A stretch of 64,000 nucleotides of DNA from contig CAJOEM010000009.1 in the NCBI GenBank assembly GCA_905233725.1, positions 1-64,000 on the forward strand. The letters run 5' to 3'. Both the position numbers and the translations under genes were made by a program. Position 1 is the first letter of the stretch. The number at the start of each line of letters is the position of its first letter. The notes under the pieces are model-generated. The model saw nothing but the letters and a program-made list of their open reading frames with translations. It searched no databases and was not told the origin of the DNA. Below are positions 52,752 through 57,127 of this stretch, in pieces. Source of the stretch: an uncultured Synergistales bacterium. GTDB lineage: Bacteria; Synergistota; Synergistia; Synergistales; Aminobacteriaceae.

Positions 52752-53684
52752 ATGCAGGAAGTAAAGAAAGTTACGACTGAAGTAGGCACTAATGAATGGC
52801 AGTTAGTTGTTTTTGTTCTGGGTGATCAATCGTTCGCAATCAACGTGGATAAGACGCGTGAGATTTTGCGTTGGCCCGGTTGCAGATCGATTCCGGATGC
52901 GCCGGTTGCGTTGATCGGCATAACGTCCGTTAGAGGAGAGGTGTTGCCGATGGTTGATCTGCGAATATTCCTGGGTATCCCGCCGGTCACTCCGATGGAA
53001 CAGAGCAAAGTTATCATTGCAGAGTTCAACGAGGTGAAATTGGGATTCGTTGTCGATGCTGTCGAGAGAATTTACAGGATTAAGTCCGAAGATTTAGACG
53101 CAAGCATGACGGGAAAATATCTGGGCGATTGGATTCTGTACGTGATTAAGCGCGACAGTCGAAACGTGTTATTACTCGATTACGAAGCCATAGTTCAGAC
53201 GATAAGTCCGCAACTCGTGATCCAACATAGCGGCGATCCAACCAGAGCTGCAGCAATGATGGAAGGCGTCGGACACCCTGGCGATTACAGCATTGTCATT
53301 GCCGAAGATTCGCCGTTGATCCGCAAACAAATCGAGGACGCTCTGAAGGCAAACGGCTTCACGGACCTGAATATTTGCTCGGACGGTAAAGCTGCGTTTG
53401 ATACGATTGTACGCGAGAACTCACGCTGCGATTTGCTTATAACGGACGTCGAAATGCCCAGACTTGACGGACTGACTTTGACGCGCAGAATAAAAGAAAA
53501 TCCGGATACGAAAAATATTCCAGTGATCGTGTTCTCGTCGATAATGGCAAATGATATTAAGAACAAAGCTGCGAGTGTCGGCGCAAATTATCAGGTCACA
53601 AAACCAGAAATTAACCAGTTAATCGAAGTCGTCGTGAAAGTCATTCGTGAAAAAGAAATCAAGCGTGAATCCAAAGAAGAATAA
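52752..53684 (+). CDS. cheV: chemotaxis protein CheV (CheW-receiver fusion)
   Basis: 310 residues: a CheW domain (about 15-150, VFVLGDQSFAINVDKTREIL, ALIGITSVRGEVLPMVDLR) joined to a response-regulator receiver (about 175-305). The phosphorylated Asp is in DLLITDVEMPRLDGLTL, near residue 238, with the acid pair in SIVIAEDSPLIRKQI and the Lys in YQVTKPE. CheV proteins couple receptors to CheA and tune adaptation. It is translationally close to the following unknown gene (ATG two bases after its stop). Confidence 0.94.
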   Translation: MQEVKKVTTEVGTNEWQLVVFVLGDQSFAINVDKTREILRWPGCRSIPDAPVALIGITSVRGEVLPMVDLRIFLGIPPVTPMEQSKVIIAEFNEVKLGFVVDAVERIYRIKSEDLDASMTGKYLGDWILYVIKRDSRNVLLLDYEAIVQTISPQLVIQHSGDPTRAAAMMEGVGHPGDYSIVIAEDSPLIRKQIEDALKANGFTDLNICSDGKAAFDTIVRENSRCDLLITDVEMPRLDGLTLTRRIKENPDTKNIPVIVFSSIMANDIKNKAASVGANYQVTKPEINQLIEVVVKVIREKEIKRESKEE

Positions 53685-53685
53685 T

Positions 53686-54480
53686 ATGCCCGATGAAGCT
53701 GAAGCAGGCTTTCAATCTGAGTTCCGGTCAAAACTGAAATTTCTCGTTCAGGGCAGCTCCGTGAATAATTATTTGTTGCCGCATTGGGATTCTGATTTGA
53801 GCATTGATTTATCGTCAAGTTTCCCGTTCGGTAAAGATTACGCGCCGGTTTGGTCGAACGCGCTTTATAACGAGGGTTTGGGCATAATCGCGAAATCATG
53901 TATCGAGTGTGGCAGCGAATTGTTCTTCATGGTCTCGCCGCTGACTGGCTGCATAGGAAGCTTCACTCGTGAGAATGCGTTCAGTTTTTCGCAGTCGTTG
54001 TCGTTGAATTTGGGTTTCATGCTGCTGCTGGGATATTCGCACGTGATGGAACGAATCGTCTTTGTTGCACTCGATGTCTTTGATGAAAATCACGAACTCA
54101 AAGCCGGAATCACGAATTGTCATATCACGAAACGCGGAGTCTTTGCGGGTAGAACCAGAGCGATCGCCATTGCAAGTCTTGAACCGTTTTTTGACCCGGG
54201 AAAATTTCTTCTGGATTTTGCGATATTACTGCGCGAGATAAGTTCGGTGAATAATTCTGGCAAATCGTTGGCGTTTTTTGCGGAGAAATTCGGCTACACA
54301 AGATTCGCGTTTGACTGGGAAATTGACAGTCCGGAGCAATTAAGAATCAGGAAAGCTTTGTACGAGTTGAAATTTGACAGCACCAGAGACGTAACAGGTC
54401 CGTCGCCTGCGATACAGTTTCCGCCATTTTTGGGAACTGTTGTGAACGTTGACTACAGAAGTGAAGGAGGAGGAGCTTAA
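53686..54480 (+). CDS. unknown protein between cheV and rpoD
   Basis: 264 residues from the ATG at 53686, two bases after cheV; a frame extension further upstream overlaps cheV and is not used. No motif is recognised. It lacks a signal peptide and clear TM segments, though the middle (about 105-135, [20 protein letters not shown]) is hydrophobic. Cys pairs occur in CIECG near residue 78. It ends in EGGGA, with the rpoD Shine-Dalgarno formed by its last codons (GGAGGAGGAGC). Its operon suggests a link to chemotaxis or to general expression, but nothing firmer. Confidence 0.75.
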
Positions 54481-54481
54481 T

Positions 54482-55945
54482 TTGGCACGAAGAAAAAAGC
54501 AAGTTGAACAAGTTGAGCAAATTGAGCAAGTTAATGAGATCAAACCAATCGAATCTGTTGAACCAATCGAACCAGTCGAACCAGTGAAAATCCCAAAGAA
54601 GCGCGGCAGAAAACCCGGGAAATCCATCAAGAAGAAATCCGAAGATTCTACGCCAGCTGAAGCCAAAGTCAAAAAGAAACCCGGACGCAAAAAGAAAAAA
54701 GCAGATTTAAATCTCAGCGAAGAATTGCACGAGAAAATCGATCCTGACGCGGAACTCGATGCGAGAATGAATCAGGATTCGGAATTTGGCTCTGTTTTCG
54801 ACACGCCTGAACCGGATAATTTCGACGAAGATGACGTTGGCGATGATAATGACGACGTTGCTGAGAAATTCGACACTCCAGGCTTCGGTGATTTGATAAG
54901 CGAAGGACGCGATCAGGGATTCGTTACGCATAGCGACATTGAGCGGCATATTCCGGCAGATTCATGGGACCCGGATACGCTCGACAGCATATTGTCGAAT
55001 CTTCAGGAATTGGGAATCGATGTTGTTGATAAGAATCGCATTGATAAACTCCCAAGTTCATCTGAAGCGCGCGAGGAATATATCCCGTCGATTGAGAGCG
55101 ATATTGGAAAACTCGATGACATTCCATTGACGGATCCGGTGCGAATGTATCTGCGTGAGATTGGCAAAGTTTCGTTATTGACAGCAGCAGAAGAAGTCGA
55201 ACTCGCTCAAAAAATGGAAGAAGGCGATATTAAGGCAAAACAGCGATTGATTGACGCAAATTTGCGCCTTGTCGTGAGTATTGCGAAGAAATATATCGGG
55301 CGCGGAATGTTATTTCTTGATCTGATTCAGGAGGGCAATCTTGGATTGATTCGTGCCGTCGAGAAATTTGACTATCGCAGGGGCTTCAAGTTCAGCACGT
55401 ACGCAACATGGTGGATTCGCCAGGCGATAACTCGCGCAATAGCAGATCAAGCACGCACAATTCGCGTTCCCGTTCACATGGTCGAGACGATTAACAAAAT
55501 GGTACGCGTTTCGAGAATGCTCGTTCAACAACTCGGTCGTGAGCCAACAGATGAGGAAATTGCCGAGGGAATGGGAATTGAGCCATCAAGAGTCGAGGAG
55601 ATTCGCAGGATTTCGCAATTACCGGTTTCGCTTGAGACACCAATCGGTGAAGAAGAGGACAGCCAGCTCGGAGATTTTATAGAAGATCACGATTTGCCAA
55701 GCCCCGATGAGACAGCAGCAGGTCATTTGCTACACGAACAAATCGAGGACATGTTGAGCAATTTGTCCGAACGTGAGCGCGAAGTTCTGCATTACAGATT
55801 CGGTCTCGAGGACGGACACTCGTACACTCTCGAGGAAGTCGGCAAGAAATTCAACGTGACACGTGAACGCATTCGTCAAATTGAGGCAAAAGCTCTGAGG
55901 AAATTACGCCAGCCAAGTCGCAGATTGAAAGATTTTCTGGATTAG
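54482..55945 (+). CDS. rpoD: primary RNA polymerase sigma factor RpoD
   Basis: Housekeeping sigma factor. The TTG at 54482 is used as the start because GGAGGAGG lies just before it, giving 487 residues. Residues 1-90 are a low-complexity, charged extension ([18 protein letters not shown], then [10 protein letters not shown] and [10 protein letters not shown]). Region 1.1-like sequence is near 150 ([17 protein letters not shown]), region 1.2 near 220 ([25 protein letters not shown], in part), region 2 near 295 ([32 protein letters not shown], in part), region 3 near 360, and region 4 ends [20 protein letters not shown]. The upstream gene shares the Shine-Dalgarno. Confidence 0.95.
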
Positions 55946-55962
55946 AAAACGGGGAAATAATT

Positions 55963-57048
55963 ATGGCGAGCAAATTTGTCAGCACGGTTAAGAATGTCAG
56001 GTTAGGTGTAAATTTATCAAAAAAGAGATTTCGGCATAATCTTGGGATTTCGTTACTTGCTACGATTGTGTTGGTATTCGGCAGCGCGTTCTTCGTCTGG
56101 TGGAAGGAACGTGGATTTCGCGGGGCGTATTGGGACGCGCTCTGGGATATATTATTCACGTTGATCGGTCAGGGCGAATTTGCAACTTCACCGCGGACGT
56201 TACTCGGGCGAGTGATTGTGTTTCTAGTGTCGGTGATTGGTGTAGCGTTGTTGGGCGTAGTTTTCGCGAACTTGATGCAGAAATTCATAGACAGCCGATT
56301 AAAGCAAATAGTAGGAGATATTTTGGGAATGAACATGTGCAAATACGAAGGTCATATAGTAATCTGTGGTTGGAACGGTCGCGGTCCATACTTGATTAGA
56401 CAGTTGAGCGCGGCAGGTCGTCAAATGTCGTTGATCGCGAGTGAAAGACCAGACGCAATTCACAACTCAGAAATATTTTTCATTCAGGGCAATCCGTCAG
56501 AACGTGAGGCGTTAATCCAGGCCGGAATCGAGAAAGCCAGAGCAGCAATAATTCTCGGAGATCCGAATTTCGGCAATGATGACTCGCACACGATTTTGAC
56601 CGGACTCGCAATCGAAGCCGTTACTCCGAATGTCTACACGGTTATGGAACTGCACGACCCAGAGAACGAACGTTACGCACGATACGCACACGTCGATGAT
56701 ATTCTTTATACGGATAGTTTAATCGCGGATATTACGGCAATGTGCACGCATAACGAGGGAATTTCGGCATTTATTCGCGATATTTTGTCAACGGCAGATG
56801 AGGGACACAGTTTCGCGTCATTTGATGCACCCAGAGAATTTCGCGGAAAAACTATCGGGGATTTGTTCGCGCATTTCAGAACGGAAGGCTCGCTGCCAGT
56901 GGGAGTAATCACGCCTCCGGATAACGGCATGAATCCCAAAGATATTCCAGCGTCAGAATGGCTCTCACAAGTTGCGCCGTCGCCGAGTGAAATCGTAACG
57001 CTGCCAATGAAAGTCGTTTGCATTGTGAATGATAAAAAAAGAAGATAA
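55963..57048 (+). CDS. two-TM ion channel with RCK (TrkA-N) domain and altered filter
   Basis: 361 residues. TM1 is residues about 27-47 (LGISLLATIVLVFGSAFFVWW), the pore helix and loop follow (YWDALWDILFTLIGQGEF, 57-74), TM2 is about 81-107, and a TrkA-N domain begins near 128 (HIVICGWNGRGPYLIRQL) with its NAD-binding GxGxxG-like GWNGRG. The canonical K+ filter TVGYGD reads LIGQGEF here, so strict K+ selectivity is not expected. A C-terminal RCK-type region follows. It is the last gene of the cheV-rpoD run, before a terminator. Confidence 0.85.
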   Translation: MASKFVSTVKNVRLGVNLSKKRFRHNLGISLLATIVLVFGSAFFVWWKERGFRGAYWDALWDILFTLIGQGEFATSPRTLLGRVIVFLVSVIGVALLGVVFANLMQKFIDSRLKQIVGDILGMNMCKYEGHIVICGWNGRGPYLIRQLSAAGRQMSLIASERPDAIHNSEIFFIQGNPSEREALIQAGIEKARAAIILGDPNFGNDDSHTILTGLAIEAVTPNVYTVMELHDPENERYARYAHVDDILYTDSLIADITAMCTHNEGISAFIRDILSTADEGHSFASFDAPREFRGKTIGDLFAHFRTEGSLPVGVITPPDNGMNPKDIPASEWLSQVAPSPSEIVTLPMKVVCIVNDKKRR

Positions 57049-57090: not shown

Positions 57091-57127
57091 ACCGCCGCTC
57101 AATTTGTGTGAGTGACGGTCTTTTTTT
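57091..57127. terminator. bidirectional terminator
   Basis: Arms ACCGCCGCTCA and TGAGTGACGGT (one mismatch, one G-U) with seven-base loop and seven T on the plus strand and six on the minus strand, between the convergent channel gene and fliF. Confidence 0.8.

Follow-up and report, generated by a model that had tools for sequence, protein, structure and literature searches.

A single-RCK channel of Synergistota bacteria with LIGQG in place of the TVGYG selectivity filter

Results

Gene order at the channel locus

The window, a stretch of 64,000 nucleotides from an uncultured gut bacterium of the Synergistales, carries a channel gene directly downstream of a gene which we take, from its translated sequence, to be rpoD (Table 1). 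The channel reading frame is intact on the + strand from its ATG at 55963 to its stop codon at 57046-57048, and it closes a conserved order of cheV, an unnamed open reading frame, rpoD and channel. In the other nine of 47 loci rpoD is not seen at this position: four are cut by contig ends (L022, L059, L060 and L062) and five, from another family, f6, gave no rpoD match (L095-L099). The gap between rpoD and the channel is small in the genus of the window and often several hundred bases in the other genera of the family. A fliF gene lies 3' of the channel in opposite orientation. The unnamed frame between cheV and rpoD (window 53647-54480, 277 aa) occupies the same place across the family at 34-47% identity and has no Pfam match.

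Table 1. Features of the channel locus and of the encoded protein, in window coordinates
Feature	Position	Strand	Basis or remark
rpoD (sigma-70), 17 bp upstream of channel	54449..55945	+	same strand and conserved order in 38/47 loci examined
Channel gene, 361 aa: TM1, pore helix, filter, TM2, one RCK (N-lobe and C-lobe)	55963..57048	+	
TM1, aa 26-48	56038..56106	+	AlphaFold2 secondary structure; MthK alignment
Pore helix, aa 56-68	56128..56166	+	AlphaFold2, local pLDDT about 56-62
Filter LIGQGEFA, aa 67-74, replacing TVGYGDxx	56161..56184	+	MthK alignment; 59/59 orthologues with filter columns
TM2 and linker helix, aa 80-120	56200..56322	+	AlphaFold2
Putative internal Shine-Dalgarno AGGAG, within codons 117-119	56313..56317	+	
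Putative internal start TTG, codon 121	56323..56325	+	5 nt after AGGAG
Alternative internal start ATG, codon 123	56329..56331	+	11 nt after AGGAG
RCK domain, aa 130-361: Rossmann N-lobe (GWNGRG replacing GxGxxG), then C-lobe	56350..57045	+	
Terminator-like stem-loop and T run, between channel and convergent fliF	57096..57121	+	shuffles yield as many

Architecture and fold of the channel protein

The protein has two TM helices around a pore helix and loop, and a C-terminal RCK domain follows immediately after TM2, as in MthK-type channels. Pfam searches matched TrkA_N (8.2e-13, 49.1 bits, cut-off 23.8) as well as Slo-like_RCK, and Ion_trans_2 was matched below threshold (20.5 bits, cut-off 22.5). 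The same stretch scored 22.7 bits, just above the cut-off, in a six-frame search of the whole genome, where it was the sole Ion_trans_2 match. A match to EI24/CysZ (0.00038, under the cut-off) was taken as a chance match of TM segments.

MthK was the best solved relative by sequence, both with phmmer (1.5e-13) and with a 21-sequence profile (2.4e-17). The AlphaFold2 model was of moderate quality (mean pLDDT 72, pTM 0.44, 24 sequences; about 56-62 in the pore region), and its best fold match, over nearly the whole length, was full-length MthK (Foldseek, 2.6e-16). A VIA comparison of model residues 25-361 with MthK gave Z 17.7 over 243 aligned residues and a large rmsd of 16.8, which we ascribe to domains standing at different angles. 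The open reading frame, Pfam domains, fold and MthK alignment thus agree with the original prediction of an RCK channel with an altered filter. The channel has the single-RCK, two-TM architecture of MthK, which is also its nearest solved relative in sequence and in fold.

The other TrkA_N matches of this genome were judged not to be RCK channels. The C8 pair, a 507-aa frame with two TrkA_N matches, was taken as TrkA from its architecture, and those of C30 and C31 were read by sequence as a dehydrogenase and an FAD oxidoreductase.

The altered filter is conserved

Few motifs of ion channels are as conserved as the TxGYG filter. The phmmer alignment placed LIGQG on the MthK filter, T59 to D64: T59 corresponds to L67, V60 to I68, G61 to G69, Y62 to Q70, G63 to G71 and D64 to E72. 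The predicted replacement of TVGYG by LIGQG, with Gln for Tyr and Glu after the second Gly, is seen directly in this alignment, which also shows that both glycines of the filter and its V/I position are retained.

An HMM search of all open reading frames in the collected loci yielded 65 distinct frames above 300 bits. Their filters read LIGQGEFA in 58 and LVGQGEFA in one, and six had no filter columns; the number and scores of these six agree with the six RCK-only frames of G062-G065 described below. The filter count was taken from this search because it used no motif, whereas a coding-sequence set extracted by the motif GQGEFA would make such a count circular. Each of the 59 orthologues in which the filter is covered thus reads L[IV]GQG rather than the TxGYG of K+ channels, and no canonical filter occurs in the group of 65. 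Furthermore, FTL[IV]GQGEFA is retained in 21/21 sequences of profile A1, while orthologue identity to the window protein ranges from about 69% down to 42%. Conservation of L[IV]GQGEFA in 59 distinct orthologues indicates that the altered filter is neither a sequencing error nor the mark of a decayed copy.

Lower-scoring RCK relatives, in the phylum and on plasmids, carry TVGYG or the near variants TVGYES and TVGFEA; an exception among the more distant relatives is a separate CASTOR-like group with MISSDSIFE. Given the TVGYG-type filters of distant relatives, the LIGQG family is most simply explained as descended from a K+ channel. The two near variants, at L101 (1442-2536; TVGYES) and L106 (1655-2719; TVGFEA), lack the second glycine but belong to RCK channels of the order that are canonical in other respects.

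We found no publication on a LIGQG, TVGQG, TIGQG or GQGE selectivity filter. Among the papers found on Synergistetes and potassium channels, none, judged by title, concerns a LIGQG-type channel, and no bacterial LIGQG channel appeared among those listed for bacterial homologues of CASTOR.

Distribution

A search with the window protein gave some match in 66/81 genomes of the same GTDB family, and profile A1 gave one in 80/185 genomes of the phylum at E<=1e-3. Strong orthologues (E below 1e-100) occur in 60 of the 185 Synergistota genomes, namely 42 of the 43 in the genus of the window, 13 others of the family and five of family f6, and they span nine genus groups. By sequence comparison the LIGQG family appears only in Synergistota within the scope searched; because the contig scan beyond the phylum used patterns from the window protein that reach close relatives only, this restriction holds only where we searched.

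A scan of IMG/VR with profile A1 returned 37 pattern stretches and no relative, so that a viral origin is unsupported. Plasmids gave matches in 68 records at E<=1e-3, none of which reached 60% identity, and in 90 at E<=1e-2. Six plasmid loci were fetched, and TVGYG was present in all four with a readable filter (L115, L116, L118 and L119); the annotation of L117 holds only a 453-bp NAD-binding protein, and L120 yielded no recognizable filter. At L115 (148-3885; Rhizobium plasmid NZ_CP125651.1) the TVGYG RCK-type relative sits within a PspA/YjfI/DUF2491/DUF350/DUF1190 cluster.

The RCK domain lacks the nucleotide motif

In the RCK2 domain of GsuK the nucleotide-binding motif is described as GxGxxG...D/E (PMC3510474). 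The channel departs from this type. Its motif reads GWNxR[GA], with Asn138, at the middle Gly, and Arg140 invariant in 21/21 sequences of profile A1, whereas the canonical RCK channels of the phylum keep an intact GLGR[YV]G. The suggestion that the channel is gated by nucleotides is therefore not supported. Full MthK-like Ca2+ gating through the C1 site is likewise unsupported. Taking the C1 ligands of MthK to be D184, E210 and E212, their counterparts are D200, which is not invariant, E229, which is the only invariant match, and H231, which is variable.

A putative internal start at the TM2/RCK junction

Most prokaryotic single-RCK channels are reported to need an internal start (PMC3510474), which in MthK is Met107 (PMC2920069, PMC9440719). 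At the TM2/RCK junction the window gene reads GTA GGA GAT ATT TTG GGA ATG and contains a putative Shine-Dalgarno (SD) element followed by two candidate start codons (Table 1). The junction codons are TTA GGG GAG ATG ATG GGN in the genus and AAG GAG ATG ATG GGG ATG in other genera. In 42 genus sequences GGG is used at codon 118 in 36/41 and GAG at codon 119 in 40/40, compared with gene-wide shares of 0.22 and 0.43, and these columns rank 4 and 5 among 182 conserved-residue codon columns, behind three AGY serines.

The gene was scanned in 338 four-codon segments for anti-SD duplex energy, with z calculated against synonymous shuffles. Codons 117-121 ranked first on both measures, with a mean dG of -8.26 kcal/mol and a z of -9.2 for the genus set of 42 and of -11.3 for the 51 sequences that lack an RCK-only gene. 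Because the sequences are related rather than independent, these values of z are not probabilities. The next unrelated segments, with z of about -5.5 and -5.8, are weak sites in absolute energy. Within single sequences the excess is small (median p of 0.11 and 0.06 for the two sets, p of 0.26 for the window), and the signal becomes strong only when the sequences are tested jointly.

The conserved His131 follows codon 121 at a distance of 10 residues, the register in which His117 follows Met107 in MthK. Codon 121 is start-capable in 49/51 channels without an RCK-only gene versus 3/8 with one, and codon 121 or 123 is start-capable in 51/51 versus 6/8. In most of the genus ATG121 falls just 3 nt past GGGGAG, a spacing below the ideal. 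As a control, nine canonical-type RCK channels were scored and also had SD-like stretches before the RCK domain (-9.3 to -12.6, p 0.01 to 0.66); these are mostly within codon expectation, so linker composition may contribute.

Proposed replacement of the internal site by RCK-only genes in two lineages

One or two RCK-only genes are present in 9/60 genomes (G062-G065 and G114-G118), directly downstream of the channel where the contig shows the arrangement. The arrangement is split between contigs in G064 and G065, with the channel at an end of one contig and the two RCK-only genes at an end of another. The two genes are in tandem at L060 (107-1520, G065) and L062 (107-1517, G064), where the first bases of the contig match the 3' end of the channel. 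A tree of 44 RCK domains, in which long branches were flagged, places the RCK-only domains of G114-G118 as sister group to the channels of the same genomes (100/100) and the RCK-only domains of G062-G065 in another clade (100/99), indicating two duplications.

The internal site differs according to the presence of these genes. Its mean dG was -8.4 and -8.3 in the two sets that lack an RCK-only gene, compared with -6.5 and -1.0 in the two that have one. The internal SD is -5.7 in three of the four channels of the G062-G065 group and strong at -8.8 in the fourth (G063, L043), and it ranges from -3.0 to 0.4 in all four distinct channels of the G114-G118 group. Such weakening would be expected if soluble RCK domains came from the separate gene instead.

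The SD-like element could instead reflect a codon or pausing effect that aids co-translational folding rather than a start site, a reading that fits the modest excess per sequence and the strong stretches, mostly explained by linker composition, at the same place in canonical RCK channels. We regard it as unlikely, since the site is the strongest and most codon-selected of the gene, is followed in 49/51 cases by a start-capable codon in the Met107 register, and is weakened or lost in 7/8 distinct channels that have an RCK-only gene.

Discussion

Based on these comparisons, we think it fairly probable that the gene encodes a tetrameric MthK-type channel with an octameric ring of tethered and soluble RCK domains, gated by a ligand and with a pore of little K+ preference. 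Ring stoichiometry, gating by a ligand and non-selectivity are the parts of this model that we infer; the architecture, the likeness of fold, the invariant filter, the conserved nucleotides of the internal SD-like site and the weakening of this site beside an RCK-only gene are observed. The gating ring would comprise four pore-tethered RCK domains and four soluble copies, the latter translated from the internal start at the TM2/RCK junction or, in the two side lineages, supplied by the duplicated RCK-only gene. A cytoplasmic ligand would move the ring and open TM2, and the pore, by analogy with other channels, would pass monovalent cations with little preference for K+ and possibly divalents.

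Among known systems, MthK offers the closest sequence and fold, the same series of two TM helices, pore and single RCK domain, and a start, Met107, in the register of our putative internal start; it differs in its filter, TVGYGDYS against LIGQGEFA, and in a C1 Ca2+ site that the channel matches only in part. GsuK is also prokaryotic, RCK-gated and a fold match, but is described as a K+ channel with two tandem RCK domains and a nucleotide-binding GxGxxG in RCK2 (PMC3510474).

From the change of Thr to Leu at the S4 site, together with that of Tyr to Gln, we predict a cation pore that is weakly selective or lets divalents pass, and ion selectivity probably differs from that of K+ channels as judged from the filter residues; the two glycines of the filter are still present, however, and may allow a degree of K+ preference. 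Natural precedents are available. NaKTs of Tsukamurella, with the filter LPMGNGPLSP, is reported as non-selective and Ca2+-activated (PMC5052707); it shares with our channel a 2TM pore, a core of glycine, amide residue and glycine (GNG versus GQG) and the lack of the S4 Thr. Its filter is proline-rich, unlike LIGQGEFA, and the comparison covers the pore and filter. NirBac1.1 and NirBac1.2 have a K+-channel architecture with a changed pore loop and are reported as non-selective, NirBac1.2 being described as not Ca2+-permeable (PMC4607889), although their filter differs and their cytoplasmic domain is of the Kir type rather than RCK. CASTOR is an RCK channel that lacks TVGYG and is reported as Ca2+-selective (PMC6697748). 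In plant CNGCs the filter triplets include GQG, GQN and GQS, and the GQ type is thought to give some Ca2+ selectivity (PMC7830781). By analogy, these precedents make a cation pore of weak or no selectivity more likely than one selective for Ca2+ or for K+.

The CASTOR and CNGC reports raise the alternative of a channel selective for Ca2+ or another divalent, with a function like that of CASTOR/DMI1, in which Glu72 at the outer mouth and Gln70 would be decisive. Glu72 is invariant in A1 and A2, and the CASTOR and DMI1 gating rings are among the fold matches. Nevertheless, we find this alternative doubtful. The filter described for CASTOR (ADSGNHA or ADAGNHA) is dissimilar, its key Asp265 has no counterpart inside LIGQGEFA (PMC6697748), and its RCK domain matches far more weakly than that of MthK (2.1e-6 versus 2.4e-17 by profile). 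Glu72 stands at the Asp position of K+ channels and is no Ca2+ signature by itself, and NirBac1.2 is a non-selective channel that excludes Ca2+ (PMC4607889).

It is also conceivable, if distinctly improbable, that the channel is still K+-selective, the altered filter keeping the backbone geometry and the K+ sites. The retained glycines and V/I position speak for this, as does the fact that the nearest relatives by architecture are K+ channels; the role of K+ channel would otherwise be unfilled in a genome with no other Ion_trans_2 channel. Yet none of the 59 sequences keeps either the Thr or the Tyr of TxGYG, and the natural channels with comparable changes that have been measured, NirBac and NaKTs, are reported as non-selective (PMC4607889, PMC5052707). 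That the protein is a non-conducting relic, or a pseudo-pore serving only as a sensor, as its departure from the canonical K+ filter might suggest, is scarcely credible given intact reading frames, a conserved position beside rpoD, and residues of the filter, pore and RCK domain that are strictly kept in nine genus groups although identity is only 42-69%.

We therefore return to a pore of little K+ preference in an MthK-type channel. A broader proposal, which we advance only tentatively, is that of a Synergistota-specific MthK-type clade with a new and fixed filter, LIGQGEF, that admits Na+ or divalents, acting under ligand control as the only pore-loop channel and with internal initiation twice replaced by an RCK-only gene. 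If true, Synergistota bacteria would possess an RCK-ligand-gated channel for cation entry. Because it has already been published that single-RCK channels generally require an internal start, the novelty here lies in the comparative evidence and in the two proposed replacements. The whole MthK machine with a different fixed filter would be a natural experiment on the determinants of K+ selectivity, in a protein small enough for expression and direct comparison with MthK. Additionally, the two lineages that would have exchanged an internal start for an RCK gene provide a natural handle on gating-ring stoichiometry.

Membership of the channel itself in the CASTOR/POLLUX/DMI1 group was considered and rejected. 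Both have an RCK ring without TVGYG and matching RCK folds, but CASTOR and DMI1 have a larger soluble domain, a different filter and Ca2+ selectivity (PMC6697748) and only a weak sequence and profile match. The channel filter is not of the ADSGNHA type, and Castor_Poll_mid is not among its Pfam matches up to E 1. Another non-canonical filter occurs in Synergistaceae channels of six-TM type, about 780-810 aa in length, at L108 (1069-3492, G002), L100 (1161-3497, G016) and L064 (509-2884, G014). These read TMISSDSIFE at the filter position and are bacterial CASTOR-like proteins, and that of L108 matches Castor_Poll_mid above the cut-off (29.4 bits).
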